Below, one piece after another: positions 25,226-63,972 of a stretch of 64,000 bases of DNA. The stretch lies in assembly GCA_020444175.1 (NCBI GenBank), contig JAHLLM010000028.1:1-64000 (forward strand), given 5' to 3'. The notes beneath the pieces are model-generated. The model was not told the origin of the DNA and made no database searches. It saw only the letters and a list, made by a program, of their open reading frames with translations. The stretch is from Desulfobulbaceae bacterium (GTDB taxonomy: Bacteria > Desulfobacterota > Desulfobulbia > Desulfobulbales > SURF-16). Numbering within the stretch: the first letter of the stretch is position 1; each line of letters opens with the position of its first letter. The translations under genes were made by a program, and so were the position numbers.

Positions 25226-28200
25226 CTATTTCTCCTTCCAGGATGTCTTGCCGCTTCGAACGGCCGTTGCCGTATCAGCAGTCTGCCGGAACACATCGCC
25301 CGTAGACATCTGTGTAAAGACGCTTACAGTTGCCCCATCTTCGCCGCCATCACCGCTGCCGTCGTCACCTCCTCCGCCTGATCCGGAATGAATGGCAGGC
25401 GAAGTGGCAAGCCCACGCCCCAAGTCCACATAACGTGTTGCCTTGTATTTTACTTCACCATCTATGGTCACTGCTTCTGTGCCAAAAATAGTGGGCGAAG
25501 GATAGGATGTTCCTGTTTTGTAGTATTGCCCGTACAACCGGCTGTTGCCCTCTCCGGCACAGGGATCGTCACTTGGCTGGAAGACTGAAGTAAAGAGAAT
25601 TCCGCCAAGAAGTGCCGACTGGCCCAGACTGCGAGTTGCCGGAGCAATACCGGTTGTGCCGACAATGGCCGGCAAATCAAGGTACCAGCCCATCTTATAG
25701 TCATCCACCTCTGTAACCAGATCCTTGAAATTGGTTATCTGTGCCCCGCCTATTGTTGCATTCGGGCCATTAACCACTGTCTGAGCATCGTCGGTATAAA
25801 CATCGATATCTGTGGAATCAATGAGTTGTGTTGCAACATTGATTGAACCACCAGAGTCATCATCTTTGACACCATAGAGACTCTGAATTGTTGTACTGGA
25901 CTTATCGTCCATGACATAGTAGCGACCGGTTCCGAAATAGACCCATTTATTGTTAAAGTTATCAACGCTCAAGGCCGGCTGAGAGACAACCGGTTGCCCC
26001 ACATCTACCAAGGTGGTCGGAGCATCCCATTGTGCAGGATCACGGTTCTCATCGAGATTACAACGCATTAAGCGGCCAACATCTGCATCGGCATCCCCAA
26101 CAAGGCCGAAATAGAGGGTATCTGCATTAAAATCCAGATCCCAGTCAACAGAGACCGGACTCCCCATGAAAGTATCGGCAACACCCGTATCACAGGTAAT
26201 GACCCTCATCCCGGAAGCTCCCAGCGCAGTCAAGGCGCAACCGGTCGGGGCATTGGTTGTTGTCCCCGGAGTGGTGAGTTCCTCAAGGTCAAGGACATAC
26301 ATTTTAGCCGTGGAACCACTGGCCGCGGTTGAAATTGATTCCGGACCAGAACCAAAAACAAGATACCATTTATTTGAAGGAATTGTGGAATCCCTGAATG
26401 CCATAACGGTTGGATAAACCATGGTCAGACTGCCGTCAGGGGGTTGAATTTCGCCAAGTAATGTCGGTTCTTCTTCCGGGTTGGTGATGTCAAAGATCAC
26501 ATATGCCGACCGCATTGCGACATCATTTGCATCCGGGTTACCTGGAGGATGTATTGTGCCGAGACCGTCTGCAGCAGTATCGATAACCATCTCACCACCA
26601 CCGAAACGCATACTCACAACCATGACCGTTCCCCAGCCGTTAGGATGATTGGCATCAACAGTAAAGATGTTAGCGTCAAAAACTCTTGGTTTGCCATCAA
26701 CATAATAGACATGAGAGTAGTTTGGATCCTTAAGCCACTTTAAATGAGGAAGCAGATTCATAGGCGCATAGGCCCATATTTCACTCCCCAGAGGGTGCTC
26801 AGTGGCGGCGCCATCAGTTGCGCAGTTTTTACCGGAAACCGAGTAGCGCACTTTCTGCTCAGCCGTATCGTAGCCCGCATCCCCCGGGGCCAGAATATTA
26901 TTTGCGGCATCGACTCGAACAAGTTCATAAAAACCGGCGTTAAAGGCATGCAGCAGGCCATCATTGCCGCCGACATAGGCAACTACCCTTCTGTCTGCGT
27001 ATTGCTGCCGATATGCCGTATAGGTGGAATCATCATAGAGGATATTAAATGCCTCCTGGGGTGAGGAAATGACCGTGGGGGTCGAATTGATAATATCACC
27101 AAGCCGCATCACCCTGGCAGTTGCGTCGTCCGAGGTATATTTAACGGTTCGTGAACGATATCCTGCAACATCAACACCTCGCACGTAGTTCACCAAATTT
27201 TCAGCATCAGTCTGGTTGTCAACATCAAAAAAGCCATAGCTCACAGGACTTGCACCGGCGAACATGGTTTCCTCAAATTCAACATATTCGCCGGTATCAA
27301 CTGTAGAATCCAGATCCTTGTCAATCCAGGTCATGATGTGGCGGCCAGTGTCAGCCTGGGCGGAATAAAGTCTGTTTGATTCTATCTGAGCGTCACTGAG
27401 CCCTTCAAGGTACAACTGCTCCCTGGCATTCCACAGGTAACCAAGTTCATAAAGTTCCTTTTCAATGAAATCAAAATTTGACAGCATCAACCTGTCGCCC
27501 TCTTCAATCCAGTCTAAAACAGGCGTTACGGTAAAAGCCAGAGAACCTGAATTTGCCAGGGTGAGAACAGTTGCACTGGAGCCACCATTGCCGGTAGTCT
27601 TGTTGACCACGCTCCAACTACTGTATGTATCCCCGGCATAACCTGTCATATTAAAGGTTGCTATTTTGGCACTCGTACACCCTGTAAAAACATCATCTTC
27701 AACGGTGATTACAACCTCTCCCGTGTTCACCAGGGTGATGTCGTGAACTACAGTGCTTTCCGCAGCGGCAGAAAGGCACTCAATATACCAGTTATCATAC
27801 CCCTTTCCCTGCTCACCTACTAAATTATAGGTTGATATCGTTAAATCATCATGAACAACCAACCAGTCTCCGGCTGGGTCTACAGTAAAGGTAAGGCTTC
27901 CGCTGTCGGACAGGGTTAACGAGGTATCGCTTCTGGCAGTTAAAAGCGACGTGCTGTCATATATCTGCCATTTATCAAACGCCTGGCCTGCCGGTCCTAG
28001 AAGTGTTCCTTCTGTAATTGCCAGAGTAACTTCCCCGGTGTCCGGATCATAGGCAGTTACCTCCCCGGTCATGGAATACGGCTCAAGTGTTATCACTCGA
28101 TCAGCATATGCGGTGACAGCACCTTCCATAGAATAGGGAACAAGGGTTACATCTCCTGCAGTATAATCAGAGACCACACCTTCCATGGAATAAGGATCAA

Positions 28201-31200
28201 AAACATCGCCATCATCACTTGTATAGACCCTGATACGTGTCCTTTCTTCCGTTTCATCATAAAAGGACTGTATCACCTGGTCATACAGATAATTATCAAG
28301 GATACCGTTTGGCGTACATTCTCCTCCGGCAATATTATCGGTGAGGCTGCAATCCTGTCTGGTATAGCCATAACTGTCCAGCCAGAGCGCATGAACCGTA
28401 CCGAGCCAACTGGCCTGCCTGCCTTCAAGATCTTTTTTTAACGGTTCAAAATATGCCTGGTACAGGGCGCCTTCACCCCTGACGTTGTTTGAAACAACGG
28501 CTGCAGCAGTGCCTGAGGATGTTCGCTCAAGAATTGTCAGAAAAACACGATTCAGAGCGTCTTCAAGCTGCTGGGGATGGCTGGCATAAAAATATGTATC
28601 AGGAATATCATCTGAACCACTTTCACCAGTAGCATTTATGACGCTGTCCCATTCCTCTTTCCGATCAGGAATGTCATTATCATTCATATCCTCGAAACCG
28701 CCCCATTTGGAGGCATACCAGAGAGGATCTTCAAGCAAACCGGCACTGGCGTCTCCAAGCGTATAGGTTCGACTGGAAGTGCTGCCTCCATCAACCAGAC
28801 CGTAACAGTTTGTACAACCGGCTATAGACGTCGGGTCTGTATAATTAAAACCATTTGTCCCGGAATGAATATGAAGTCCATCGTCTTCAGTACCGCTGAT
28901 GACATAACCATGGCCAATGCTGTAACCCAGGTTCTCAAGTGTAACTCCAGTGGTAATGGTGATATTTGTTGCAGTTATAGAGTATTCAATAATTCCTCCG
29001 GCATCGAGGTCATAGTCATTGCCCTGAAGACTGTCCTCCCAGATAACCAGAAATTTACCGTGCCCTACTCCGGCAACCTCGGTATGGGGTTTGACAATTT
29101 TGAAATCCACCATTGTGCAGCCATAATCATCCTTATCATTGGTAATACAGGATGGAAGAAGCGTTACGACTTCGTCATCCGGCGCTCCAGGGATCGGAAT
29201 TTCAATAACCGGATTTCCTGCAGCCAAACGAACAGAATAGGTATCAACCTTTTGAATCCCAACCAAAGCACGGTTACCGGTCAAAGTGTCAGGCCGAATA
29301 TCATTGGTATGGGCATACCAGGCAAGCCCGGCAACGCGGAATCCGCCTCTGAGATCGGGTCCTTCCGGGCAGAGTCCACGCACCTCGCCCAAATCTGTAA
29401 TTTCTTTAGCCGTACATTTTCGGTTCTGGTCGGCATCGGTTTCGCCGACAAACCACTTTCTGTCAGGATGAGCAGCATCAGGATAAACCTCTTCCACCCT
29501 GCCGATTATTTCAGTAAGTTCCTGGGAATTTCGAGAGGAGTCCAAATCCTTGACCACACCGAAGCTGTTTGTATCGAGTTCATCCTTAACAGCAGCCGGA
29601 TCGGAATCAAAGACAGTATCTGCCGAAATAACACTGGAATTAAAGTTGACGACATTAAGGCGTGTGCAGTAGTTATCTGTGGTCACGGGATCTACCCAGA
29701 CACCTGTATTATAGTTGATGCCTTCTATAAATTGACCATCTCCCGACTGATAATCAGTTGGGGAATTTTCACCGGCAAAATATCGGAGACCACTCAGATA
29801 AATCTCGGCAAAGGGATTTCCCCAGTTATGGCATTCACTGTCGCTGGTATCCCCAAAAAAATTGATAGACAGTGGACATTTATCCCCCTGGTTGGAATTA
29901 TAGTTCCAATTGTCATAGTCATACCCATAAATGCGAAAGAGGCTCCAGGTGTTAATCACTCCCTCTGATTTCGTGGCATGTCCGATGGGTCCGCCGGCAG
30001 AAGAATACACACGCTTAAAGGTTCCATCACCGATATGATGATTAGCGTCAACCCAGTCGTCCTGATTATTAAATCCCGTATCAGTGCCTCCGTCGACATC
30101 GCCATCACCGTCACAGTCGCGGCCAAGGTTGATCTCACGGCACATGCCGTCAACACCGTCAATATTGGCTATTTTCTGCACCATTTCTCCGCCACGCGTG
30201 GCCTTACCATAGGTACCGGCAACCATACCGAAGAGCAGCTTATCATCATCACCATATAGCTGTAGCAGGCCGATGGGCTTGAAGTTCCCGTAGGGATACT
30301 GTTTACATTTTTCCTTACTGGAAACAAGATCAAGAACACCATCTGCATTTGCGTCCTTGCAAACCTGAACCCTTGCAACATAGTCATCCAGGCCGAGTCC
30401 AACATCTGCTTTTTTAGGGTTGTCCTGGGCAGCATATATCTCGGAATAAACAGGATCGTTATAATTCTTGCCATTGGAACCGGGATCCTCTTCCTCCCAC
30501 ATGCACTGATGCACCTCACCGGCACTCCAGAAGGCATAATTCCCTTCAGCAACCCGGATAAGAGGCGGCTCGGTAATTTCTTCCGAAAAATCATTTGCTG
30601 AAGAGTAGGTAACATTGCAGATCGTCAGTCCCGTCCGGGTGAGATTGGTGATATCCCAGTCGGCAATCGTCCCAGACCCTCCGGTAGTTTTAACATTCAC
30701 GGTTAACGGATTGCCGTCAGAGCTGTCAAAGGAAGTCACCCAGCCCTTCATAAAATTCCCGGAATTGGCGTGATCAATTATGGTGACATAATCCCCGACC
30801 TCAACCCAGTTACCGGCCTGGTTCGTATTAAAATTTTTTGACCCGGTGCCAATCCCGACGCTTGAAGAACTTGATCCGGTGGGAGATGAGGAATTGACGG
30901 AGAATGGCGTCAGGTCATTGATGTCATTTCCATCATAGTGTTTGGCAAAGGCATGGATATCAAGAGGAATGAAAGCACGTTCCAAGACCGTATCGGTGGA
31001 GGTATCTACCCTGCGATGACCGCCGAAAAGAATTTTCCTAATGGCATCGATCCGGGTCATGGAAGCCCAATTCAGAAAATTGCCGCTCCAGTAACTTGAA
31101 CTTGCCCCGGTACAGTACTTATCAGCAGTGACGGCAACAGGCTCGAACCGTTGGTCACCGGCATCATAGTCATAACATTTATAGCTGTCAAAATAGCCGT

Positions 31201-31489
31201 AGTAGTCTATTGAATGCTTATAGGTTGTTTCCGGTATATCATCATCATCAAGGTCGGAATAGTCGTTATAGGCCTTGAAAAAAAGCTGATGATCATTGGA
31301 GGAATTGATCATTACCTGGGGGCTGACCGCGGTTTCAATAAGACTTATCGGGGCGGATGAAAAATCCGCCATGGTGTAGGTTGATACTTCAGCATGAACC
31401 GACGCAACACCCCAACAGACGACTAAAAAAACAAGGACTCCCTGCATGTGTCTTATTCTTTGACAAAGCATCATTTTTAAGAACCTCAT
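25226..31489 (-). CDS. pilY1: PilY1-like pilus tip adhesin, very large
   Basis: I start at the ATG at 31489, with GGGAGG 5 bases upstream, giving 2087 residues with a signal peptide ending near VHA. PilY1 caps type IV pili, helps assembly and mediates adhesion. The C-terminal PilY1 beta-propeller starts around residue 1490 with VVAYVGGNDGLLHAFN. An aspartate-rich calcium-type segment, DWDLDFNADTLYFG, is near 1782. Other Ca-type loops are DANADGVLD near 378 and DCDGDGDVDGG near 456. Residues about 1095-1290 are an insert with three PYSM-x-G repeats and two SGSLxFTVxP repeats. Typical PilY1 proteins have 1000-1200 residues, so about 900 are extra. It is the last gene of the minor pilin operon. 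Confidence 0.87.
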   Translation of the reverse strand: MRFLKMMLCQRIRHMQGVLVFLVVCWGVASVHAEVSTYTMADFSSAPISLIETAVSPQVMINSSNDHQLFFKAYNDYSDLDDDDIPETTYKHSIDYYGYFDSYKCYDYDAGDQRFEPVAVTADKYCTGASSSYWSGNFLNWASMTRIDAIRKILFGGHRRVDTSTDTVLERAFIPLDIHAFAKHYDGNDINDLTPFSVNSSSPTGSSSSSVGIGTGSKNFNTNQAGNWVEVGDYVTIIDHANSGNFMKGWVTSFDSSDGNPLTVNVKTTGGSGTIADWDITNLTRTGLTICNVTYSSANDFSEEITEPPLIRVAEGNYAFWSAGEVHQCMWEEEDPGSNGKNYNDPVYSEIYAAQDNPKKADVGLGLDDYVARVQVCKDANADGVLDLVSSKEKCKQYPYGNFKPIGLLQLYGDDDKLLFGMVAGTYGKATRGGEMVQKIANIDGVDGMCREINLGRDCDGDGDVDGGTDTGFNNQDDWVDANHHIGDGTFKRVYSSAGGPIGHATKSEGVINTWSLFRIYGYDYDNWNYNSNQGDKCPLSINFFGDTSDSECHNWGNPFAEIYLSGLRYFAGENSPTDYQSGDGQFIEGINYNTGVWVDPVTTDNYCTRLNVVNFNSSVISADTVFDSDPAAVKDELDTNSFGVVKDLDSSRNSQELTEIIGRVEEVYPDAAHPDRKWFVGETDADQNRKCTAKEITDLGEVRGLCPEGPDLRGGFRVAGLAWYAHTNDIRPDTLTGNRALVGIQKVDTYSVRLAAGNPVIEIPIPGAPDDEVVTLLPSCITNDKDDYGCTMVDFKIVKPHTEVAGVGHGKFLVIWEDSLQGNDYDLDAGGIIEYSITATNITITTGVTLENLGYSIGHGYVISGTEDDGLHIHSGTNGFNYTDPTSIAGCTNCYGLVDGGSTSSRTYTLGDASAGLLEDPLWYASKWGGFEDMNDNDIPDRKEEWDSVINATGESGSDDIPDTYFYASHPQQLEDALNRVFLTILERTSSGTAAAVVSNNVRGEGALYQAYFEPLKKDLEGRQASWLGTVHALWLDSYGYTRQDCSLTDNIAGGECTPNGILDNYLYDQVIQSFYDETEERTRIRVYTSDDGDVFDPYSMEGVVSDYTAGDVTLVPYSMEGAVTAYADRVITLEPYSMTGEVTAYDPDTGEVTLAITEGTLLGPAGQAFDKWQIYDSTSLLTARSDTSLTLSDSGSLTFTVDPAGDWLVVHDDLTISTYNLVGEQGKGYDNWYIECLSAAAESTVVHDITLVNTGEVVITVEDDVFTGCTSAKIATFNMTGYAGDTYSSWSVVNKTTGNGGSSATVLTLANSGSLAFTVTPVLDWIEEGDRLMLSNFDFIEKELYELGYLWNAREQLYLEGLSDAQIESNRLYSAQADTGRHIMTWIDKDLDSTVDTGEYVEFEETMFAGASPVSYGFFDVDNQTDAENLVNYVRGVDVAGYRSRTVKYTSDDATARVMRLGDIINSTPTVISSPQEAFNILYDDSTYTAYRQQYADRRVVAYVGGNDGLLHAFNAGFYELVRVDAANNILAPGDAGYDTAEQKVRYSVSGKNCATDGAATEHPLGSEIWAYAPMNLLPHLKWLKDPNYSHVYYVDGKPRVFDANIFTVDANHPNGWGTVMVVSMRFGGGEMVIDTAADGLGTIHPPGNPDANDVAMRSAYVIFDITNPEEEPTLLGEIQPPDGSLTMVYPTVMAFRDSTIPSNKWYLVFGSGPESISTAASGSTAKMYVLDLEELTTPGTTTNAPTGCALTALGASGMRVITCDTGVADTFMGSPVSVDWDLDFNADTLYFGLVGDADADVGRLMRCNLDENRDPAQWDAPTTLVDVGQPVVSQPALSVDNFNNKWVYFGTGRYYVMDDKSSTTIQSLYGVKDDDSGGSINVATQLIDSTDIDVYTDDAQTVVNGPNATIGGAQITNFKDLVTEVDDYKMGWYLDLPAIVGTTGIAPATRSLGQSALLGGILFTSVFQPSDDPCAGEGNSRLYGQYYKTGTSYPSPTIFGTEAVTIDGEVKYKATRYVDLGRGLATSPAIHSGSGGGGDDGSGDGGEDGATVSVFTQMSTGDVFRQTADTATAVRSGKTSWKEK

Positions 31490-31527
31490 GACGGCCTCCC
31501 GGAATGTAACTTTCATGGACATAAATT

Positions 31528-32181
31528 TCAAAATGATTTTTCGCAGTCACTTGAACTTGCGTTATTAATGAGATGAGTACTGAGCTTCCACTCGACAGCA
31601 ACGACAGACTCACTATTCTGGACACCTTCATGGTCAGCGATAATCGTGTAGTTTATGTGGGTTCCACCAGCAGCAGATCCTTTACCAAGCCCCTCATAGC
31701 CGGCAATCATCTGCAAGCCGCTGCCTTCCGAATTTCGTGTCAATCCTCCGGCAGAAATATTCGTGTGAGGAGCGGTGACGTCTGTCGGATCTGTATAAAA
31801 AACAGCATCCCGGCTGGTATCAGTAGGAGGAGCAACAAAAGCAACTTTCAAAGATGAGGCATAATCGAGATCTTCCACAACTATATTACCGCTGGTGCCG
31901 ACGATCTGCTTTGTTGTCCCCGCAGGAGGAGAATCGGCCGTAAAACCGTTGAAATTAATGCAGAGAGCATTCTCATAGGTCAATCGGATACCAAGTTCCG
32001 CACCACCGTCTGCCTGGTAGAATGTCTGTTTATGCACCTTATCATTACCAGCAATCTGTAACTCAATAATCGTCGAGTTCGTTGCGGCAACACCGATAAT
32101 GACAAGTATCAGCAGAACAAGAAGGGAGGCAACGAGAATAAAGCCGCTTTCTTTACTTTTTTTTTCTAAAATATCAGCCAC
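31528..32181 (-). CDS. pilX: PilX-like minor pilus assembly protein
   Basis: This 217-residue protein starts at a GTG with AGGTG upstream. Its leader MADILEKKSKESG precedes the hydrophobic FILVASLLVLLILVIIGVAA. Position 5 of the mature part is Ala rather than Glu, as is common in PilX. A following ELQIAGNDKVHKQTFYQADG segment is typical of PilX N-terminal domains. PilX with PilV, PilW, FimT and PilY1 forms the priming tip complex. It follows pilV by 8 bases and precedes pilY1 by 38 bases. Confidence 0.82.
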   Translation of the reverse strand: MADILEKKSKESGFILVASLLVLLILVIIGVAATNSTIIELQIAGNDKVHKQTFYQADGGAELGIRLTYENALCINFNGFTADSPPAGTTKQIVGTSGNIVVEDLDYASSLKVAFVAPPTDTSRDAVFYTDPTDVTAPHTNISAGGLTRNSEGSGLQMIAGYEGLGKGSAAGGTHINYTIIADHEGVQNSESVVAVEWKLSTHLINNASSSDCEKSF

Positions 32182-52277: not shown

Positions 52278-53852
52278 TCAAAAAAGGCCGTCAACTTTCT
52301 CTTTTAAAACCTCTTTGGTAAAGGGTTTTGTTATGAAATCCGTCACACCTGCCTCTCTGGCAAGGTCAGTCTGAGATTTCTCAGACTCGGTACTGGCCAT
52401 AAGGATAGGTATGTCGAGCTGCAGTGTATTGCGCACCTCACGTACAAGCTCAATGCCATCCATGTTGGGCATATTGAGATCGGTAATGAGAAGATCAAAC
52501 TCCTCACCTGATTTCAGCAGGTTAAGGGCCTGCAGGCCATCTTCCGCCGTAGTCAGACTGACATTCATTTCAGCAGTTGCCGATGTATAGAAAAAGATCA
52601 TCGCCTTGGAATCATCAGCTGCGAGTATGCGCTTATCTCCGGAGGCGCCTTCACTCATTTCAAGCTTCTTCAGCGCCTCGCCGGCCTGCTCCCCTTCAAG
52701 TGAGGCCAGAATTTCTTTAAAAAATTCCATTGATTCAGTATTGCGGCTGGCAACAAGGATATCCATTAACTCATCGAGATAATTCCCGTCCTGACAGACA
52801 ACGCCGAACAGCTTGCCGGCTCTTGTGGTGACAAGGGCGGATAAAATCCTTTTCTTTTGATCTGCATCCTTGCCCAGGGTGTCAATAAGCATCTTGGCAA
52901 CCCCGGGATTAAAAATATCATTTAACGCAGTCATAACGGCTACGAGAATCATCTCATCCGTTTCAGATAAGCCGTCACAAAGCCCGACAACACTCCTCAT
53001 GGAGGGAATACGTCCAAGTGCTTCATATGCAGCAAATTTAAGATTAGCCTCTAAACTGTCGGCACCATCCAGCAGCTCGGTTAGAATATCAGCGCCAACT
53101 TTGTCACCGATAAGACCAATGACATTGGCAGCCATAATTTTCTCATCCTTGTCGCCTTCCCCCAAGACCTTCTGAAGTGTCGGGAGTGCTTCTTTCCCTA
53201 CATGGATAAGCTGTTCATGGACTATCTTTCGAATAGTTGGATTTTCATTATGAATATGCGAAGTAAGAAAAGATATAGCTTTTTCATCTGTAAACTTTCC
53301 AAGTTTTGTTAAGGCAAGACCGATGCCGAGAACATTATCCCCTGTTGCGCAGGCGGATGTTATATAATCACATAAAGAGTCACGGCCTGGTTCACCGCTG
53401 TTTGATGCTTTTTCCATTGCAAGGCCTGCAACTGTAGCATCTTCATGTTTCATGTATGGTAAAAGAACATCAAAGAGAGCAGGATCATCGAGCCTTGATA
53501 AAGCTCGAACTACTTCAGTGAGGAATTCAATATCACCAGAACAGGATTCAAGCATTTTTTTTAACGGATCAAGGGCGGCTGAAACACCGTTTTCTCCAGC
53601 AGCCTTGATACAGAGAAGCTTTACCCTTAAGGCTTCATGATTGAAACCTGCAAGAATCTGAGCGTGATCATCCCTCAGCAAACTGATGAGAGCATGATAA
53701 ACCATCTCATCAACAGCTGTATCCGGCAAGGGAGAGGAGTAGATATCAAAAAGAGCGGATATAGCCTGCCCCTGGCCGCTTTCACGGATTTCGTCCAGGA
53801 TCATAATCTGCTCAATCATATTCTTGTCTTGAAAATTCTGAAGTGTATCCAT
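52278..53852 (-). CDS. HEAT-repeat protein with C-terminal receiver domain
   Basis: I start at the ATG at 53852, with GAGG 6 bases upstream, giving 524 residues. Residues 1-390 are alpha-helical repeats of HEAT type (DPLKKMLESCSGDIEFLTEV, ADILTELLDGADSLEANLKF). Residues 405-524 are a CheY-like receiver (ILAADDSKAMIFFYTS, LLITDLNMPNMDGIELV with the phospho-acceptor Asp, then DFITKPFTKEVL with the conserved Lys). It is the last gene of the che operon, 19 bases after cheB. A scaffold that changes partners on phosphorylation by CheA is a reasonable guess. Confidence 0.76.
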   Translation of the reverse strand: MDTLQNFQDKNMIEQIMILDEIRESGQGQAISALFDIYSSPLPDTAVDEMVYHALISLLRDDHAQILAGFNHEALRVKLLCIKAAGENGVSAALDPLKKMLESCSGDIEFLTEVVRALSRLDDPALFDVLLPYMKHEDATVAGLAMEKASNSGEPGRDSLCDYITSACATGDNVLGIGLALTKLGKFTDEKAISFLTSHIHNENPTIRKIVHEQLIHVGKEALPTLQKVLGEGDKDEKIMAANVIGLIGDKVGADILTELLDGADSLEANLKFAAYEALGRIPSMRSVVGLCDGLSETDEMILVAVMTALNDIFNPGVAKMLIDTLGKDADQKKRILSALVTTRAGKLFGVVCQDGNYLDELMDILVASRNTESMEFFKEILASLEGEQAGEALKKLEMSEGASGDKRILAADDSKAMIFFYTSATAEMNVSLTTAEDGLQALNLLKSGEEFDLLITDLNMPNMDGIELVREVRNTLQLDIPILMASTESEKSQTDLAREAGVTDFITKPFTKEVLKEKVDGLF

Positions 53853-53871
53853 AAGTATCCTCAAAGAAATT

Positions 53872-54945
53872 TTAACTTCTACAGGAAGTAATTTTTGCTG
53901 CCAGATCGGACAGGGGAACTATCTCATCCACTGCTCCCAACTTAATCGCCACCTGTGGCATACCGAACACCACACAGCTTTTTTCATCCTGGGCAAAAGT
54001 CTTTGCCCCGGCCTGTTTCATCTCCAAAAGGCCTTTGGCCCCGTCATCCCCCATACCGGTCATAATAATGCCTGTGGCATTTTTTCCAGCATATCGGGCT
54101 GTTGAACGGAACAAAACATCCACAGACGGCCTGTGTCGACAGACCAGGGGACCATCTTTTACCTCAACGAAATATCGAGCACCACTTCTCTGTAACAATG
54201 TATGCCTGTTGCCAGGCGCTATCAAGGCCTGACCACGTAAAACAGTATCACCATTTTCCGCCTCTTTGACCCGAATCTGGCAAAGCCCATCCAGTCTTTT
54301 GGCAAAAGCTTTGGTAAATCCTTCAGGCATATGCTGTACAACCACTATTCCCGGCACATCGCGGGGCAGGTTCATTAAAACATTTTTCAGGGCCTCGGTA
54401 CCTCCTGTTGAGGCACCTATGGAAATGACCCTTTCCGTGGTCTTTACCATGGCCGCTTTTTTAGCTGGAGGAATCACGGCATCTGCTGTTAATTTTTTCC
54501 TTGGATTATAGGACGATTTCGTAAAAGTACGTTTTTTTACCGTCACCCTTGCTGCAGCCTTGACACTGTCGCAAATTCGTATTCTCGATTCCTCAATAAA
54601 TTGACGAGCACCCATCTTCGGCTTCGTGATGATATCCACCGCCCCGTATTCCAAGGCTCTAATGGTTGTCTCTTCGCCCTTTTCAGTCAGGCTTGAACAC
54701 ATGACAACAGGAATTGGATGCTGACTCATAAGTTTTTTCAGAAAGGTCAGTCCGTCCATTCTCGGCATCTCCACGTCAAGCGTGATGACATCAGGGCACT
54801 CTTTTTCTATTCTGTCAGCAGCCACAAAAGGATCACTGGCAGGATTCATTATTTCAAAAACAGGATCGGATTGAAAAACCTCACTCAGTGCCTTTCGAAC
54901 AACTGCGGAATCATCAATGATCAGGACTTTTATCTTTCTGCCCAT
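53872..54945 (-). CDS. cheB: CheB protein-glutamate methylesterase/deamidase
   Basis: This 357-residue protein has an N-terminal receiver ([11 protein letters not shown], then [10 protein letters not shown] with phospho-acceptor D57) and a C-terminal methylesterase. The catalytic triad is visible: S179 in [14 protein letters not shown]205 in [13 protein letters not shown] and D300 in [12 protein letters not shown]. It removes methyl groups from the MCP and deamidates glutamine. The phosphorylated form is activated by CheA. It lies between cheD and the HEAT-receiver gene. Confidence 0.95.
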
Positions 54946-55006: not shown

Positions 55007-55489
55007 TTATAAACGACCAAGGTAAACATCCCCTGTACCGGAATGAAAATGCAGCTTATATCCTTTGTGTCCACCAACGCATTCGGCAACCAGCGGAATT
55101 TCAAGCTTTCTCAAAACGTTCCTTGCCATTTCTATATTTGCAGGACCAACAAGTAATGCCGAGGTTGAAGTCCTTTTTATGCGTGAAACAGCGCCTCCGA
55201 AAAGTTTCGCCTTCATTCCCTTCAGAGGCAGGCCTATGTCCTGAAACTTCTGCATCATTCGGGGAAGAGTGCTGTCAACGTAGCGATAAATGCTTTCATT
55301 GCCATCAACACCGGAAGGAAGAAGACAATGACACATTGCACCTGCTGAATATTTCGAATGAAAAAGACACACTGTGACGCAGGAGCCGAGAATAGTCGTC
55401 ACCACTGTCGGCACCCTGGAGACAAAGAGCTCTCCGGGCTGCAACCACACATGAGGCAAATTTCTCATCAACTTTTTTACTTCTTGCAT
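55007..55489 (-). CDS. cheD: CheD chemoreceptor glutamine deamidase
   Basis: This 160-residue protein has the catalytic Cys in TTILGSCVTVCLFHSKYSAG near residue 36, His in MCHCLLPSG, and the Thr nearby (VVTTILG), as known for CheD. It deamidates receptor glutamines to glutamates and can be controlled by CheC or CheY. The start at 55489 overlaps cheR by 13 bases; an ATG at 55468 would remove the overlap. The order cheR-cheD-cheB suggests one receptor-modification module. Confidence 0.93.
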   Translation of the reverse strand: MQEVKKLMRNLPHVWLQPGELFVSRVPTVVTTILGSCVTVCLFHSKYSAGAMCHCLLPSGVDGNESIYRYVDSTLPRMMQKFQDIGLPLKGMKAKLFGGAVSRIKRTSTSALLVGPANIEMARNVLRKLEIPLVAECVGGHKGYKLHFHSGTGDVYLGRL

Positions 55490-56349
55490 TGATAAACAGA
55501 GGATTCGATTTTAACAAATTTTTTCTCCATTCCCTGAAGATTCTCAGCATGTCCAAGAAACAGAAAGCCATCCGGTTTTAAGTTATTATGGAATTTTTGA
55601 AATAATTTTATCTGGGTTTGTCGATCAAAATAAATAATCACATTTCTACAAAAGATAATATCAAAGTCCATCTTGAAATTAAATTTTTTATCCATAAGAT
55701 TTAATCGCTGAAATGTAATCTTTTGTCGAAGTTCCGGCACCACACGATGCAGACCCGACCTTTGTCCTTTTCCTCTCATAAAATATTTAAATTTCAAATT
55801 TTTCGGGACAGTTTCCAGAAGCTCATCTTCATAAATGCCCTGCCTGGCACGACTTAACACCTGACTATTTATATCTGTTGCAATAATAGAATAGCTGAAC
55901 CAGGGGTTAAGCTTTTCATATTCAGCCAGAACGATGGAAAGAGTGTATGGTTCTTCTCCGCTGGAACACCCAGCACTCCATACTCGCAGATTTGCACTGT
56001 TTTTGCTGCGTTGTTCATAGTATAAACGAGGCAAAAGCGTCCGCGACATATAATCGAAATGTTGCCTTTCCCGAAAAAAATTTGTCTTATTGGTACTGAC
56101 TGCATCAATAAGATGGCCCCATTCCCGCTCCTCCCCCTCTTCACTTAAGACAAAATCTATATATGACTTGAAAGACCCTAAGCCGCAGGCTTTAACACGC
56201 CTTCTCAACCTGGAGGAAAGCATGGTTTTTTTGGAGGCAGGAAGATTTATACCCCAATTTTCATAAATAAATGCGCTCAGCTTGCGGAAATCTCTGTCCG
56301 CAAGCAAAGAAGCATTTAAACTTTTGCCCCAGTCTTCAGGCACAATCAT
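55477..56349 (-). CDS. cheR: CheR MCP methyltransferase
   Basis: This 290-residue protein has an N-terminal all-alpha domain (FRKLSAFIYENWGINLPASK) and a SAM-binding domain with VWSAGCSSGEEPYTLSIVLA near residue 124, ATDINSQVLSRARQGIY near residue 156 and FCRNVIIYFDRQTQIKLF. It methylates receptor glutamates. The ATG at 56349 has AGAGG directly adjacent, whereas a GTG two codons on (56343) has it at 6 bases, so the true start may be that GTG. Confidence 0.94.
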   Translation of the reverse strand: MIVPEDWGKSLNASLLADRDFRKLSAFIYENWGINLPASKKTMLSSRLRRRVKACGLGSFKSYIDFVLSEEGEEREWGHLIDAVSTNKTNFFRERQHFDYMSRTLLPRLYYEQRSKNSANLRVWSAGCSSGEEPYTLSIVLAEYEKLNPWFSYSIIATDINSQVLSRARQGIYEDELLETVPKNLKFKYFMRGKGQRSGLHRVVPELRQKITFQRLNLMDKKFNFKMDFDIIFCRNVIIYFDRQTQIKLFQKFHNNLKPDGFLFLGHAENLQGMEKKFVKIESSVYQCKK

Positions 56350-56362
56350 CCTCTTTTGTTAC

Positions 56363-58435
56363 TCATGTACAGCTTTCTGTTTCCTCAAGCTGGGCGGATT
56401 TTGCCAGTGCCTGGGTGTCTATGATCAAAGCAACCTCACCATTCCCAAGAATTGTCGAACCTGATAAACCGGTGGCATTGCGATATACCCAGCCAAGCGA
56501 TTTTATGACAGTCTGATGACCGCCGATCACATCATCAACGACAAGCCCGATCTGTTCATTTCTCAACCTGACAACAACCATTTGCTCCCTTTCCGGTTTT
56601 TTTCCTGGTATAGCAAAAAAATCGCGCAGCCTGACGTAAGGTATCAAATGCTCCCGTACCTCGAAAACGCGGCGCTCTTTAAAACGGGCAATATCTTTTC
56701 CCGTCAGTTCGAAACATTCCTCAACCTCAGAAAGGGGAAGAACAAAATGCGTATCTCGTGTGCGGACCAGGAGACCATCAATAATTGCAAGGGTAAGAGG
56801 AAGGGTAATTGTAACCGTGGTGCCGCTGCCTTTTTCACTGTCAACATGCACAGAGCCACGCAGTTTCTCAATAGCACTTTTTACAACATCCATACCTACG
56901 CCACGACCGGAAACGCTGCTCACCTCTTTGGCAGTGGAAACACCTGCAGCAAAAATAAGATCAAAGATCTCCTGCTTGCTGAGTTCTTCATCTCCTTTGA
57001 GTATTCCCTTTTCAATGGATTTTTTCCGAATGGACTCTGCATCGAGCCCTTTGCCGTCGTCAATTATGGAGATAACGACGTTGGCACCGGTGTGCGTTGC
57101 AGACAAACGCAGTGTCCCTGTCGAATCCTTACCACTTTTGTTTCTGATATCTGGTTTTTCAATACCGTGATCAATTGAGTTCCTGATCAGATGGATAAGG
57201 GGATCATTCAACTGCTCAATAACTGTTTTATCAAGCTCCGTGTCTTCGCCTTCCGTAACCATTTCCACTTCTTTGCCGAGTTCTGCTGAAAGATCACGAA
57301 CAAGACGCTTAAATCGGGTAAAGGTAGTGCCGATTGGCAGCATTCTGATATTTAAAACCAGATCGCGCAGTTCGGCGGTGAGGTGTTCAATTTGCTCAAC
57401 TGGCTCCATAAACTCAACTTGCTGGGAAACCGTGGCAACATCCGTCAATCTGGCCTGAGTCACGACAAGTTCGCCGACAAGGTTGATCAGGGAATCAAGT
57501 TTATCTGCGGCAACCCTGATGCTTTCAGCAGATTTCAGCTTCTGAAATTCTGCTCTTTTGCTTGTTTTCTCAGGAGCTTGAGTTTTTTTACTTTTTGGAG
57601 TCGGAGGTATCTCTTTTGCGGTTTGAACCGGCGGAGTTTCTTTTCCATCAGCCTTGCCGGTATCTGATGCGCCTATCTCCTGGGCGATCTGTTGATGGCT
57701 TTTTCCACTCTCCTGTTCCTCAATCTCCAGTTTTGAGCTTGACTCGGCAAAGATAAAAACATCTCTTATTACATTAAAATCACCTGCAGCACTGACAAGA
57801 ATTTTCCAGTCGGGCCTATCGAGACTCTCCTTATTCCTTGGTCCTTCTCTAAGAAAAGTAACTTCACCAAGCGCATCGATATCTTTCAGAATCTGCTCAA
57901 TATCCCCACCCTCTTCAAAAAAAGCCGGTTGAGGGCAAAAATCGATGAGATAATGCTGCAATGAAGCAGTATCCTCACTATCCGTTGACACAGTTTTCTT
58001 TTCAGCCTCAGCCTCCTCTTCCGGAACAGGTTCAGCGTCTTTCGTTTCTCCTTCACCACTTGTCAGCAAGGCGAGCTCATTAATAATAGAGTTTCCCCTT
58101 TCAGTGTCAGGCTCATCACCTCCTGAGGCTGCATCAAGAAGCATCTTGATAAAATCACGGGACTCAAGGACAAGGCTTATAAGCTCACTGCTGACAGGAA
58201 CAGCCCCATCCCGCACACGGTCTAAGACGGTTTCGACATGATGCGTAAAATCAGCAATTCGGTCAAAACCGAACATGGCTGCCGACCCTTTAATAGTGTG
58301 CATGCTGCGGAAAACCTTTCCAACAAGTTTCAGATCTCCCGGAGATTCCTCTAATTCGAGGAGTGCCCCTTCAAGATCCTCAAGGAGCTCCATAGCCTCT
58401 TCCTGGAAAACTGCAAAAAAATCTGTTTCTGCCAT
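56363..58435 (-). CDS. cheA: CheA sensor histidine kinase
   Basis: This 690-residue kinase has an N-terminal Hpt domain with phospho-acceptor His46 in RSMHTIKGSAAMFGF. A ferredoxin-like P2-type region follows (LQHYLIDFCPQPAFFEEGGD near residue 150). A dimerisation helix leads to the P4 ATPase (HLIRNSIDHGIEKPDIRNKS, DDGKGLDAESIRKKS, GRGVGMDVVKSAI) and a C-terminal CheW-like P5 domain. It phosphorylates CheB and the receiver proteins. It is the classical CheA of the operon, whereas the 771-residue kinase encoded further upstream is a hybrid. Confidence 0.95.
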   Translation of the reverse strand: MAETDFFAVFQEEAMELLEDLEGALLELEESPGDLKLVGKVFRSMHTIKGSAAMFGFDRIADFTHHVETVLDRVRDGAVPVSSELISLVLESRDFIKMLLDAASGGDEPDTERGNSIINELALLTSGEGETKDAEPVPEEEAEAEKKTVSTDSEDTASLQHYLIDFCPQPAFFEEGGDIEQILKDIDALGEVTFLREGPRNKESLDRPDWKILVSAAGDFNVIRDVFIFAESSSKLEIEEQESGKSHQQIAQEIGASDTGKADGKETPPVQTAKEIPPTPKSKKTQAPEKTSKRAEFQKLKSAESIRVAADKLDSLINLVGELVVTQARLTDVATVSQQVEFMEPVEQIEHLTAELRDLVLNIRMLPIGTTFTRFKRLVRDLSAELGKEVEMVTEGEDTELDKTVIEQLNDPLIHLIRNSIDHGIEKPDIRNKSGKDSTGTLRLSATHTGANVVISIIDDGKGLDAESIRKKSIEKGILKGDEELSKQEIFDLIFAAGVSTAKEVSSVSGRGVGMDVVKSAIEKLRGSVHVDSEKGSGTTVTITLPLTLAIIDGLLVRTRDTHFVLPLSEVEECFELTGKDIARFKERRVFEVREHLIPYVRLRDFFAIPGKKPEREQMVVVRLRNEQIGLVVDDVIGGHQTVIKSLGWVYRNATGLSGSTILGNGEVALIIDTQALAKSAQLEETESCT

Positions 58436-58444
58436 TGAATTTTC

Positions 58445-58984
58445 CTATTCGGCTTGATGTTCTTCTGTCGCTACTATTTCTGGGGAAACTGCCCCAAGAG
58501 TTGCGTCACGCAGGGTTGCCTCACCTTCACTTGCCAGGATCTTGTCAATATCCAGCAGGATGAGAAATTTATCATCATGGCGTCCCATACCCTTAATAAA
58601 ATCCGTATTCAAATTGGTACCCATGCTTGGTACGGTTTCGATATTTGCCGGGTCAAGGTCAAGGACGGCTTGTACGGCATCGGTTAATACACCCATGAGA
58701 ACGGGTTCTGCATCTATCTCAACAGCTATCTCCATTATCATGATACACGTGTTAATTGTTTTAACAACAGGCTCCATGCCGAGTTTCAATCCCAGATCAA
58801 CAACCGGCACAACATTTCCACGCAGATTAATAACACCGCACAGATATTCGGGCATTCTGGGTATCCTGGTCAAGGTTGCTACGTCAAGTACCTCCCGAAC
58901 CTTAAATATTTCCACGGCAAAATCTTCATCCCGGAGGGTAAATGAAAGATACTGGCTACCTATGTTTTCATCCTGGATGTCCAT
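58445..58984 (-). CDS. cheW: CheW coupling protein
   Basis: This 179-residue SH3-like protein has QYLSFTLRDEDFAVEIFKVR, RIPRMPEYLCGVINLRGNVV and VPVVDLGLKLGM, the CheW core that bridges CheA and receptor. GGAG lies before the ATG. It is 10 bases from cheA and 14 bases from the MCP gene. Confidence 0.94.
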   Translation of the reverse strand: MDIQDENIGSQYLSFTLRDEDFAVEIFKVREVLDVATLTRIPRMPEYLCGVINLRGNVVPVVDLGLKLGMEPVVKTINTCIMIMEIAVEIDAEPVLMGVLTDAVQAVLDLDPANIETVPSMGTNLNTDFIKGMGRHDDKFLILLDIDKILASEGEATLRDATLGAVSPEIVATEEHQAE

Positions 58985-58998
58985 GTGATTCTCCTTTG

Positions 58999-61101
58999 TT
59001 AATATCTTTCAAAATCATCTTCAGAATCTGACAGGTGCAGTTTAACACCAGCGTCCTGTTCTTTTTTATCCGTAGGCTCTGACTTTGGTAATTCAAGGGA
59101 CGGGATCGACCTTTTCGGCGGCATTGAGTGGTTGTGGTGTTGTATTACTGATGTTGCATAGCCCTCGCCTGTTTTGAAAAATGAAATAGCAGTCATCAAT
59201 TCGTTTGATTGGGCATTCAGCTCTTCAGCAGAAGCGGACAGCTGCTCGGAGGCAGAACTGTTTTGCTGAATTACCTGATTGAGCTGTTCCACTGCCATGC
59301 AGTTTTCCTGCACACCTTTTGCCTGTTCAGCACTGGCGGCATCGATCTCTTCAACGAGATCAGCAGTCTTTTTAATCTGCGGCACCATTTCAAGGATCAC
59401 CTTACCTGCATTGGCCGCAATTTCCACACTGCTACCCGCTACACCCTTAATTTCCTGTGCTGCAGTCTGACTTCTTTCTGCAAGTTTGCGAACCTCAGCA
59501 GCAACAACGGCAAAACCTTTGCCATGCTCCCCGGCACGTGCTGCCTCAATAGCGGCATTGAGAGCAAGCAGGTTTGTCTGCCTGGAAATTTCTTCTATAA
59601 TTTCAATCTTTTCAGCAATGGTCTGCATGGCACTCTCTGTATCAGCCACGGCCTGACCGCCTCTCTCTGCATCCTGTGCTGCCTTTTTAGCAATGGCCGC
59701 TGTCTGCCGGGCACTGTCGGCACTCTGATCAACGGTACTTGTCATCTCTTCCATGGAAGAGGAAATCTCTTCAACCGTTGCAGCCTGTTCACTGGCTCCC
59801 TGGGATACGGTCTGGGAGGTTGCTCCAAGTTCGTTGCTGCCGGCGGCAACCTGGTTGGCAATTTCCCTGATTGTCATGACCGTGTTTTTGAGCCTGGCAA
59901 CCATTGATCGCATGGCTTGGGCAAGGTTACCGATCTCATCTTTACTCTCAAGACTGATTGTCGTCGTCAAGTCGCCTGCGGCAACCTCTTCGGCAAACTT
60001 GACCCCCATGTTAAGAGGATCGATAATGGAACGAGACACCTTATAAAGAAAAACAGCAAGTACTCCTGTGGCCAACAGGTATGTGAAAATAGCCATAAGA
60101 TTTGCGGTTGACATAACACCGGCAAGATCATCTTCTGCCTCTGTACGCTCTTCGGCCACGGAAACTTCAAATTCTTTCAGATTTTTCTCAAGGGCTTCGG
60201 CTGCTTCATCTAGGTTGTCATCAATATCTTCAAATGATTTTTCTATACGGGCGAGATCAACGGCACTTTTCTCGATAAGATCCTTCAGTTCAACACGAAC
60301 GCCTTTATCCAGATTTTCCACACCTTTGGCAACGTCAGAGGCCATCTGTTTTTCGATACCGCTTTCAGCAAAAGAGAAGAGCTCTTCAAGGGAAGAATGA
60401 AGATATTTCAAACTGTCATTGATGACAGTCATCCTCTCTTCGTCAATTTTGCCATGGTCCTTATCAATGAGTGAATCCATGGCAGCCAGCATGAGTTCAA
60501 GGTGAGCCACCCGCATATCATTGACATGCTCCATTACCACCGAGATGGCCTGGGCTTCTTTTGGTGTGGCTTTTTCGAGTCTGGCTCCGAGAGATTCATC
60601 AAATTTTGCCAGATTGCCGCCAACGGCATCTCCATATTCGTCAAGCACATCATCCATGTGATCAAAATCTTTTTCAATACGCTCAACCTCAGCTCCAGCT
60701 TGCTCGATCATCTGCACCAGATCTTTTTGAATAGCAATGGTAAGTTGCTCTATCTGCCCGGTCATATTCACAGCAAGCTGCTCTTCCAGTGTATTATCAG
60801 CAGCCTCTGTAATTACAGGAAGATTGGACTTCAGAAAAGAAGCGGACTTGTTAATAAGCTGCAGACGTTCTTTACTGACCGTACCTTCTCCCTTATCGAT
60901 AATGGCGTCCATGGCTGCCAGCATCAATTCTCCCTGAGCAGCCTCCATAGCCTTAATCGTTTCCAACTGACTGTTGCGCAACCGATTTAAATCCATGGCC
61001 TTATTTACAGACCTGTTGGAAAAAAACATCACTCCGAACAGAACTGTTAAGGCCAGAATAGATATGGCACCTGCTAATCCCAGTTTCCTAGCGATAGTCA
61101 T
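58999..61101 (-). CDS. Methyl-accepting chemotaxis protein with duplicated sensor module
   Basis: This 700-residue receptor has TM1 at residues 8-28 and TM2 at 334-355. The periplasmic part holds two similar helical modules, residues about 58-170 and 202-314. Both begin ELMLAAMD, then IDK and ER, and end with RIEK.F, D.LDE and NL..F. A HAMP domain follows ([20 protein letters not shown]), then the signalling hairpin tip [20 protein letters not shown] near residue 546. The C-terminus ends SEDDFERY and lacks the NWETF CheR tether. GGAGG precedes the ATG. It is the only receptor in the operon; its ligand is unknown. Confidence 0.92.
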
Positions 61102-61226: not shown

Positions 61227-63542
61227 TCATGCTTCCTGGGCAATTTTATCCACGTCAACAATTAAAACGATATCTTCGTTGCCAAGCACAGTGTAGCCGT
61301 AGATTCCGGGGATATTCCTGAACTGCTTGTAGCCATGGGAAAACACCTTAACAACAACCTGCTGATGATTAAAAACCTGATCTACAAGAAGAGCCATGTT
61401 CTGATCAGTACAAACGACCAGAACTTGCTCATCCGTCAGGGTATCACCAATCGGTTGCCCATAAAAAAAGTCATTCGCATCAATCACCCGCAGAATTCTA
61501 CCGTTATAGGCAAAAGCATTTTTATCCTGCAGAATATTGACGAATTTTTTTTCCGGGTAGATGGTTGTGGTGACCTTGTCCGAGGGAATGGCAAAAAACT
61601 GCCCGGCTGATTTTACTATGAGGGCCTCACGGGTGACCAGAGTCCTGGTAAGGGGGATGGTAATGGTAACCTTTGTTCCCTTTCCTACTCTGGAATCAAC
61701 GTCAATGACCCCGTTATTTTTCTGCAGGGCCGACATCACGACATCCATCCCCACACCGCGTCCTGAGACATCAGAAATTTTCTGGGCTGAACTGAATCCC
61801 GCTTTAAAGATCAGATTAACCAGATCCTTATCCGTCAATTCATTCACCTGACGCTCGTTCATAAATCCTTTTTTTACAGCCACCTCTTTCATCTTCACGG
61901 GATCAATCCCGCTTCCGTCGTCCTCAATGACAAGGTAGACGTACTCATCGTCAACAGAAGCGGCAAGGGTCAGCACACCTGTAGCCTGCTTTCCAGCGTT
62001 CATTCTCGCCTCAGGACTCTCGATGCCATGATCCACGGCATTTCGTAAAATATGAACCAGAGGATTCTCAATATCTTCAATCAAATCCTTGTCTATTACT
62101 GTTTCCTCTCCTACCAGACGAAAATCAATATCCTTATTGAGTGAAGCTGAAAGTTTCCTGATCACTTTAGGAAAACGCTGAAACAAAATCTGTACAGGAA
62201 GACGTCGCACGCTCATGATATCTTCCTGCAAATGGGCGACCATATCGTCCATGGTGGTGATGGTGTTGGTGTAACGCGTGATGATGTCCATGGATACGGA
62301 GGCTTGTTCAAGCTGCCGCTTGAGGAAATTAAAGGAGTCCAAGGTGATAAAAAGGTCTCCCACTGATTCAGCGAAACTGTCAAGTTTGGACTGGTCAATC
62401 CTGATTGATTTTCCAGAGGGCACCCCTTCCCCTCTTTTCACATGGGTATTTAAAAGCTGTTTTTCCTGGACAACAAGGGCTCGATTTAAGTCGTCTTCGC
62501 TAATCAACCCCTCTTTTACCAATATATCTCCAACCTTCTCCTGCCGGGAAAGGGCTTCCATAAGCTGCTCGGGACTGATTTTTCCCTGATCGACAAGAAT
62601 TTTACCGAGTTTCTCGCTCTCGGCAGCGGCTTCATCATCTTGAAGATTTCCCCCTTGAACTACAAAATGATCTACAACCTGACGCAACAGGGTACAGATA
62701 GAAGCAGCGAACTCCCTACTGGCTACCATGAGATCATCATCAATAAAATTAAGGAGTGAAGTAAGCTCAGCAAAAATTTCGCTGATTTGTTCTTCATCTT
62801 TAAGAAGATGCTGAGCTTCATCGATATGTTCTTTTAATGAATGCCGCAATTCTCCCTTGACCGGGATACCTTCAACAAGACTTTCATAAACGACATGAAA
62901 GCAGTTCACCATGGGTGTACAATCTTTTTCTTTATAAGAATAGGAACACTCAGGCTTATAAAATGATATTCTGGCGAGCTGTTCCAGTTCATCAACCATC
63001 TTTTCCAGATAAAGGTTACATTTCTCAATCTGCTCCAGTGTCGCGGAAACGAGGCTGTCGTCTGAGGTCCTGAAGTCCAGCTCGTCACCTCTAGCAAGTA
63101 ATTTTTCCAGATCAAGCACACTTTTCAAAGAGCCCTTCACCTGCTGAGGTTTACATGTTTCAATCTTATTCTGTAAAAACTCTTCTTCTTCCGGACGCAA
63201 TGAAACATCATCAAGGTTATCCAATACCCTGTTAATCATACCCTCCAGATATTCAACACCAGTAAGAAGAATATCTATAATTTCTTTATCAACAGTAATT
63301 TCTCCCCTGCGGATAAAGTCGAGGAGATCCTCCAAGCGATGGGCAAAACGATTGATATGGGAAAGCCCGAAGAAACCGGAATTTCCTTTCATGCTGTGCA
63401 CAGGACGAAATATTTTTGTGATAATGTCCAGATTGGCAGGGTCGCGTTCAAGCTCAATAAAGGCGTTTTCTATATCCTGGAGGGAATCATTTGTTTCATC
63501 AATGAAACCTTTTAGTGCGACGAGATCTTGCTCACTTACCAT
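61227..63542 (-). CDS. Hybrid CheA-type kinase with MshEN-like motifs
   Basis: I start at the ATG at 63542, giving 771 residues; the extra 31 codons upstream overlap the receiver gene. The Hpt domain has His49 in RPVHSMKGNSGFFGL. Residues 307-365 hold two MshEN-like units, KLGKILVDQGKISPEQLMEA and KVGDILVKEGLISEDDLNRA, each ending in ALxxQE. The P4 domain has HILRNAVDHGIESPEARMNA near residue 497 and GRGVGMDVVMSAL. A CheW-like P5 domain closes the protein. It could put a cyclic-di-GMP signal into chemotaxis. The arginine of the first position is Lys here, so binding is uncertain. Confidence 0.82.
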   Translation of the reverse strand: MVSEQDLVALKGFIDETNDSLQDIENAFIELERDPANLDIITKIFRPVHSMKGNSGFFGLSHINRFAHRLEDLLDFIRRGEITVDKEIIDILLTGVEYLEGMINRVLDNLDDVSLRPEEEEFLQNKIETCKPQQVKGSLKSVLDLEKLLARGDELDFRTSDDSLVSATLEQIEKCNLYLEKMVDELEQLARISFYKPECSYSYKEKDCTPMVNCFHVVYESLVEGIPVKGELRHSLKEHIDEAQHLLKDEEQISEIFAELTSLLNFIDDDLMVASREFAASICTLLRQVVDHFVVQGGNLQDDEAAAESEKLGKILVDQGKISPEQLMEALSRQEKVGDILVKEGLISEDDLNRALVVQEKQLLNTHVKRGEGVPSGKSIRIDQSKLDSFAESVGDLFITLDSFNFLKRQLEQASVSMDIITRYTNTITTMDDMVAHLQEDIMSVRRLPVQILFQRFPKVIRKLSASLNKDIDFRLVGEETVIDKDLIEDIENPLVHILRNAVDHGIESPEARMNAGKQATGVLTLAASVDDEYVYLVIEDDGSGIDPVKMKEVAVKKGFMNERQVNELTDKDLVNLIFKAGFSSAQKISDVSGRGVGMDVVMSALQKNNGVIDVDSRVGKGTKVTITIPLTRTLVTREALIVKSAGQFFAIPSDKVTTTIYPEKKFVNILQDKNAFAYNGRILRVIDANDFFYGQPIGDTLTDEQVLVVCTDQNMALLVDQVFNHQQVVVKVFSHGYKQFRNIPGIYGYTVLGNEDIVLIVDVDKIAQEA

Positions 63543-63546
63543 ATTA

Positions 63547-63972
63547 TTACTTTTTCCCTTTATGCATTGCAGCCTGTGTAAGCAAACTGCGAACCCGTTC
63601 CAGCCTTTCTGCGGCGACAGCAGCAGCGCTGACAATCATTTCAGGATTTACCGGCTTGAAAAAAAGATCTTCAGCACCGTATCGAAAGGCATTAAGGGTA
63701 TTATTAACAGTTATATAGCCTGTAATGATAATCACCTTGATCATGCCATTGTGGGCCTTGATTTTCTTCAAAAGATCAAGACCGTTCATGTCCGGCATTT
63801 CAATATCGCTGATAACAATATCAACGGGTTCTTTTTCTATTATTTCATAGGCCCGCAACGGACTGTCGGTGGTTATCACCTGAAACGGACTTTCCTTAAA
63901 AGCTTCTGAAAGTACAGAAAGAACAGATTTCGAGTCGTCAACAATGAGGACTCTATAAGATTTACCACCCAT
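63547..63972 (-). CDS. Stand-alone receiver protein (CheY-like)
   Basis: This 141-residue response regulator has VLIVDDSKSVLSVLSEAF, the phospho-acceptor Asp in VISDIEMPDMNGLDLLKKI near residue 56, and LFFKPVNPEM near residue 104 with the conserved Lys. A helical tail of about 30 residues (MIVSAAAVAAERLERVRSLL) extends the normal 120-residue fold. GGGAG lies 5 bases before the ATG. It is the first gene of the operon in this window; the promoter is probably to the right of the window. A CheY or kinase-modulating role is likely. Confidence 0.88.
   Translation of the reverse strand: MGGKSYRVLIVDDSKSVLSVLSEAFKESPFQVITTDSPLRAYEIIEKEPVDIVISDIEMPDMNGLDLLKKIKAHNGMIKVIIITGYITVNNTLNAFRYGAEDLFFKPVNPEMIVSAAAVAAERLERVRSLLTQAAMHKGKK

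Follow-up and report, generated by a model that had tools for sequence, protein, structure and literature searches.

A compact MshEN_N-like tandem motif in a CheA kinase of a Desulfobulbaceae bacterium, a candidate built-in c-di-GMP input

In most descriptions, CheA lacks a sensor domain of its own (PMC10782961). Most known links between cyclic di-GMP (c-di-GMP) and chemosensory systems depend either on separate adaptors, such as the PilZ protein MapZ, which acts on a chemotaxis methyltransferase (cited in PMC12564702), or on enzymes that bind CheA, such as Pch (PMC10212136). Does the CheA encoded at the locus studied here carry a c-di-GMP site of its own? Such a site, if true, would be a direct allosteric input to the kinase. 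The window is the whole stretch of DNA that was analysed, 64,000 nucleotides of contig JAHLLM010000028.1 from a Desulfobulbaceae bacterium.

A complete CheA within a che gene cluster

The CheA kinase that a sequence-only reading of the window had placed at 61227-63542 is indeed encoded there, by an open reading frame on the minus strand whose product, hereafter CheA1, has all four Pfam domains above cut-off: Hpt (residues 10-105), H-kinase_dim (378-445), HATPase_c (492-632) and CheW (640-770). These four domains in this order, together with a phosphorylatable histidine, are those of a CheA histidine kinase, and CheA1 is a complete CheA. The boxes HSMKGNS (His50), NPLVHILRNAVDHG, DDGSG and GRGVGMD can be read in its sequence, and the kinase boxes N, G1 and G2 look intact. 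From its N-terminus, the protein consists of Hpt/P1 (His50), a helical segment (~106-305), a compact MshEN_N-like element (311-359), P3, P4 and P5. The helical segment has no Pfam match, is weakly conserved across orthologs, and no P2 domain was recognised. The features of the cluster are as follows.

63547..63972 (-), stand-alone receiver, 141 aa (PF00072, E 1.4e-27)
61227..63542 (-), CheA1, 771 aa (open reading frame, ATG start)
62208..62411 (-), P3 dimerization domain of CheA1 (Pfam PF02895, residues 378-445)
58999..61101 (-), methyl-accepting chemotaxis protein, HAMP and MCPsignal (Pfam)
58445..58984 (-), CheW (Pfam)
56363..58435 (-), CheA2, 690 aa, without the motif (Pfam; no motif by NF053729)
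55477..56349 (-), CheR (Pfam)
55007..55489 (-), CheD (Pfam)
53872..54945 (-), CheB (Pfam)
52278..53864 (-), HEAT-repeat protein with a receiver at its C-terminus, last gene of the che cluster (Pfam)

The ATG of cheA1 lies 4 bases past the stop codon of the upstream receiver gene, and a receiver gene immediately precedes cheA1 in all nine orthologous loci that extend that far. The 141-aa receiver is likely the phosphoacceptor of CheA1. The other neighbours vary across the orthologous loci and include NtrC-type regulators, Hpt-receiver proteins and a histidine kinase with a receiver. A single che cluster thus holds two full CheAs, CheA1 with the motif and CheA2 without it. The HEAT-receiver protein (52278-53864, minus strand) is an unusual partner for CheB and CheD.

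In a tree built from 57 CheAs over their P3-P5 core, CheA1 and 10 orthologs fall into one fully supported clade, all with the same motif spacing of 25 residues; Desulfobulbaceae and Desulfurivibrionaceae MAGs are among the sources of the named orthologs. On this tree CheA2 is nested among motif-bearing, spacing-25 CheAs, because of which we consider that it has probably lost the domain. Genome-wide, H-kinase_dim had 7 matches, 2 of them in motif-bearing CheAs.

The tandem motif, its contact positions and its spacing

The sequence-only reading had reported two MshEN-type motifs within residues 307-365 of the kinase. They are present, as two 24-residue units separated by a single residue:

62541..62612 (-), motif I, K311-Q334, KLGKILVDQGKISPEQLMEALSRQ (within the NF053729 match 311-358)
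62538..62540 (-), spacer E335, one residue between motifs I and II (sequence; hhalign gap of 4)
62466..62537 (-), motif II, K336-Q359, KVGDILVKEGLISEDDLNRALVVQ (within the NF053729 match 311-358)

The NCBIfam profile NF053729 (c-di-GMP motif, MshE-related), a curated 53-position profile with a cut-off of 38 bits, matches residues 311-358 with 57.7 bits (E 7.5e-16). A phmmer search of CheA1 against PDB sequences returned the PilF c-di-GMP-binding domain at E ~1.5e-5 (single-domain entries) and MshE (5htl) at 3.5e-4; the matches of the motifs are PilF GSPII domains, MshE and PilB, the others being weak, unrelated and above E 0.01. When the compact motif pair was aligned by hhalign to 20 ordinary MshEN pairs from related genomes, the probability was 99.2% and the sole gap was one of 4 residues, inside the spacer. 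These searches support, at the sequence level, a relationship between the tandem motif and the MshE-type c-di-GMP motif. A match to unrelated helical repeats only, named at the outset as the result that would speak against the motif, was not what they gave, the significant matches being MshE, PilF and PilB; a chance helical repeat is ruled out by the profile and PDB sequence searches. The proposed MshEN profile search gave a divided answer: NF053729 scores above its curated cut-off, but the Pfam MshEN model is silent, no match to MshEN_C / PF05157 being reported by the Pfam search of CheA1. PF05157 was dropped as the only test for MshEN, as it is silent on CheA1 where NF053729 scores. DUF4388 and FumaraseC_C match the motif region weakly, below the Pfam cut-off.

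Both motifs fit the pattern of two 24-residue units, (R/K/L)LGxx(LVI)(LVI)xxG... ending in Q, with V337 for L, a conservative change, as the sole departure. A strict MshEN domain has a 5-residue spacer and 53 residues; because the spacer of CheA1 has 1 residue and its domain 49, the element is best classed from its sequence as a compact MshEN_N-like variant and not as a strict MshEN domain. The motifs start 25 residues apart, versus 29 in MshE. In MshE, two 24-residue motifs joined by a 5-residue spacer bind one c-di-GMP (PMC5013675), and therefore motifs I and II of CheA1 are expected to form one domain binding one c-di-GMP rather than two sites. The initial description of two adjacent units of the MshE pattern is thus borne out as to the relationship (by profile, PDB searches and contact positions), but not as to the layout, since the starts are 25 and not 29 residues apart and the units make up one domain for one ligand.

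The positions equivalent to the ligand contacts of MshE are K311, L312, G313, L327, L331 and Q334 in motif I (MshE R9, L10, G11, L25, L29 and Q32) and K336, V337, G338, L352, L356 and Q359 in motif II (MshE R38, L39, G40, L54, L58 and Q61). Among the 11 orthologs, no substitution at these 12 positions goes beyond K/R or L/I/V, and 7 of them do not vary at all. Reduced-alphabet entropy in the same 11 sequences is 0.0 at the contact positions versus 0.84 elsewhere in the domain (permutation p 1e-4). The orthologs share ~50% overall identity, the segment 130-304 of CheA1 drifts, and the structural first-turn glycine 320 is not conserved (G in 2 of 11 orthologs). The contact positions overlap the hydrophobic core, and their conservation is by itself no proof of a ligand. 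As for the lysines, PilF GSPII-B has K and L at the corresponding first positions and binds c-di-GMP at 6 nM, and the motif consensus has since been extended to R/K/L at position 1 (PMC11731258); Lys for Arg at this position is therefore compatible with binding. Other compact-type CheAs have P, L or Q at motif II position 1.

The shortened spacer is not confined to this locus. Across 58 related genomes, the 150 top-scoring NF053729 matches comprise 137 free of indels, 8 longer by one residue and 5 shorter by 3-4 residues; these last five are all CheAs. In motif-bearing CheA linkers from related and named genomes, counted apart from the window's own (25), the spacing is 25 in 31 and 26 in 15. 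A further sample of the phylum gave 25 or 26 in 13 of 15 (window CheA1 included), the remaining two being at 30 and 31. These linker spacings indicate that the compact motif is a recurrent CheA variant in this phylum, and a result on one compact CheA would therefore bear on many species. Of the CheA linkers retrieved around P3 domains, 59 could be read and 12 of these have the motif pair; the sample omitted most of the CheAs collected earlier. An apparent 29-residue pair in the linker L019 was a spurious regular-expression match, the actual pair being at 26.

The compact spacing is not universal in motif-bearing CheAs, as spacings of 30, 31, 33 and 36 refute this. The CheAs L156 and L158 have the same tandem motif at 31 and 30, and two longer-spaced CheAs are encoded on gammaproteobacterial plasmids, L139 of Aeromonas sp. 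BC14 (33) and L140 of Pseudomonas sp. HR96 (36). On both plasmids a response regulator and a STAS protein precede CheA.

Predicted fold, proposed mechanism and alternatives

An AlphaFold2 model of the 69-residue domain, made from an alignment of 47 compact CheA sequences, has four helices with a core pLDDT of ~90 and a pTM of 0.51. Its last helix extends to about residue 371, ~7 residues short of P3. A Foldseek search of 350,542 chains returned MshE-c-di-GMP (5htl) as the top match of the model, at a non-significant E of 2.0, and VIA-align did not report 5htl for the model at Z >= 2. The model lies 10.6 Å from 5htl over 55 columns, and the monomer fails to superpose on MshE, so that the model does not confirm a closed four-helix bundle like that of 5htl. 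In the model, the halves appear to match MshE locally while their mutual arrangement differs; either the monomer is mispredicted, or the short hinge alters the arrangement, perhaps with pairing across the CheA dimer. A first model that included P3 (165 aa, pLDDT 70) drew structure matches almost exclusively through its helical P3 part and was uninformative on the motifs.

We lean towards a reading of CheA1 as a complete chemosensory kinase into which a c-di-GMP input is built, in the form of one compact MshEN_N-type domain. Most likely c-di-GMP binds this domain and adjusts kinase output; we infer the binding, and likewise its affinity, the sign of its effect on the kinase and the output. Published data show that MshEN_C is dispensable for binding (PMC5013675, PMC11731258): MshEN_N by itself binds c-di-GMP at 0.35 µM (PMC5013675), and the N-terminal subdomain of PilF GSPII-B, isolated from the C-terminal subdomain, at 54 nM (PMC11731258). 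Judging from its gene content, the genome makes c-di-GMP, because a profile search yielded ~45 GGDEF matches and 24 PilZ matches over cut-off. Each CheA1 chain would hold one c-di-GMP in its compact domain, the two guanines stacking against the leucine clusters of the motifs and Q334 and Q359 bonding ribose and phosphate. The site would lie between the N-terminal helical segment and P3, which begins ~18 residues past motif II. As only ~7 residues lead from the last helix to P3, the ligand would be in a good position to alter the geometry of P3/P4 or the access of P1, and its binding would change phosphate flow to the partner receiver. In PilF, ligand binding causes the first turn of helix 1 to unwind and the following subdomain to tilt (PMC11731258); a similar movement in CheA1 would reach P3 via the last helix of the domain.

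The alternative that survives best, which we nevertheless regard as unlikely, is an MshEN_N descendant that no longer binds c-di-GMP and whose role, between the N-terminal helices and P3, is now structural or one of protein contact. We know of no c-di-GMP binder with a 1-residue spacer; the spacer is 4 residues shorter than in MshE, and the failure of the predicted monomer to superpose on MshE would be consistent with lost binding. The domain is also dispensable in places, as CheA2 has none and in some CheAs the glutamine of motif I is replaced by K or R, and XpsE/GspE of Xanthomonas provides a precedent for a fold kept and a ligand lost. However, XpsE, unlike CheA1, has lost several contact residues (PMC5013675). 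In the 11 orthologs, whose overall identity is about one half, neither glutamine has been lost and every stacking position is retained, and the contacts stay while the turn glycine and segment 130-304 drift, which argues against the loss.

A second alternative places c-di-GMP only across the CheA dimer, bound by motif I of one chain and motif II of the other, beside P3. It is a sub-case of the built-in input and compatible with it. Shortened hinges favour domain swapping, and here the hinge is cut to 1 residue, which would prevent each chain from closing on itself; the domain directly precedes the dimerization domain, and the monomer model keeps its four confidently predicted helices without adopting the MshE arrangement. 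A monomer model with this pTM nevertheless says little about how the halves are arranged, and the few motif CheAs whose starts are 30-36 residues apart would need no swap, so that we regard bridging as rather improbable. The broader proposal, in which the compact domain would be a c-di-GMP site between subunits that bridges the CheA dimer and sets its geometry, in a design widespread in CheAs of this phylum, seems to us slightly more doubtful still. Another guanine dinucleotide as the ligand in place of c-di-GMP, such as 3',3'-cGAMP, which MshEN binds weakly (KD 3.3e-4 M; PMC5013675), is very improbable, as CheA1 has the c-di-GMP consensus at its contact positions and the genome encodes many GGDEF and PilZ proteins.

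Relation to known systems and genome context

The built-in input that we favour has its nearest described counterpart in the N-terminal domain of MshE (MshEN, Vibrio cholerae, 5htl), which CheA1 resembles in its two 24-residue motifs, their order and the 12 contact equivalents. CheA1 differs from MshE by (i) a spacer of 1 residue, not 5, (ii) K in place of R at position 1 of each motif and V in place of L39, (iii) the absence of MshEN_C and (iv) its fusion to CheA, MshE being fused to a pilus ATPase. The closest PDB sequence family is PilF GSPII-B (Thermus thermophilus, PDB 8pdk and others), which likewise has K at motif I position 1 and whose N-terminal subdomain binds c-di-GMP alone, but whose spacer is unshortened and whose protein context is different. 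The NF053729 profile itself matches CheA1 only with a deletion of ~4 positions in the spacer.

The MshEN-CheA architecture is not new: CheA is named among the MshEN fusion partners by Wang et al. 2016 (PMC5013675), and these fusions have the domain combination found in CheA1. For the CheA fusions, its main text reports neither spacer length nor position nor binding data, so that they could be compact or not. The combination is absent from a survey of CheA architectures (PMC10782961), and our search, which mostly covered literature outside subscription, found no paper testing it. In the searchable literature, neither the compact spacing nor its wide occurrence among CheAs of the phylum appears to have been described.

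Elsewhere in the window, two adjacent, overlapping large hydrophobic membrane proteins of 590 and 614 aa (17598-21174, minus strand) have no Pfam or NCBIfam match. The same holds for a 2101-aa open reading frame (25226-31531, minus strand) that adjoins a PilX-like protein (31528-32181, minus strand); its position and the look of its sequence make it a probable PilY1-like pilus tip protein, encoded within a minor pilin cluster. The genome encodes three PilT-family proteins over cut-off, as well as FliM/FliN.
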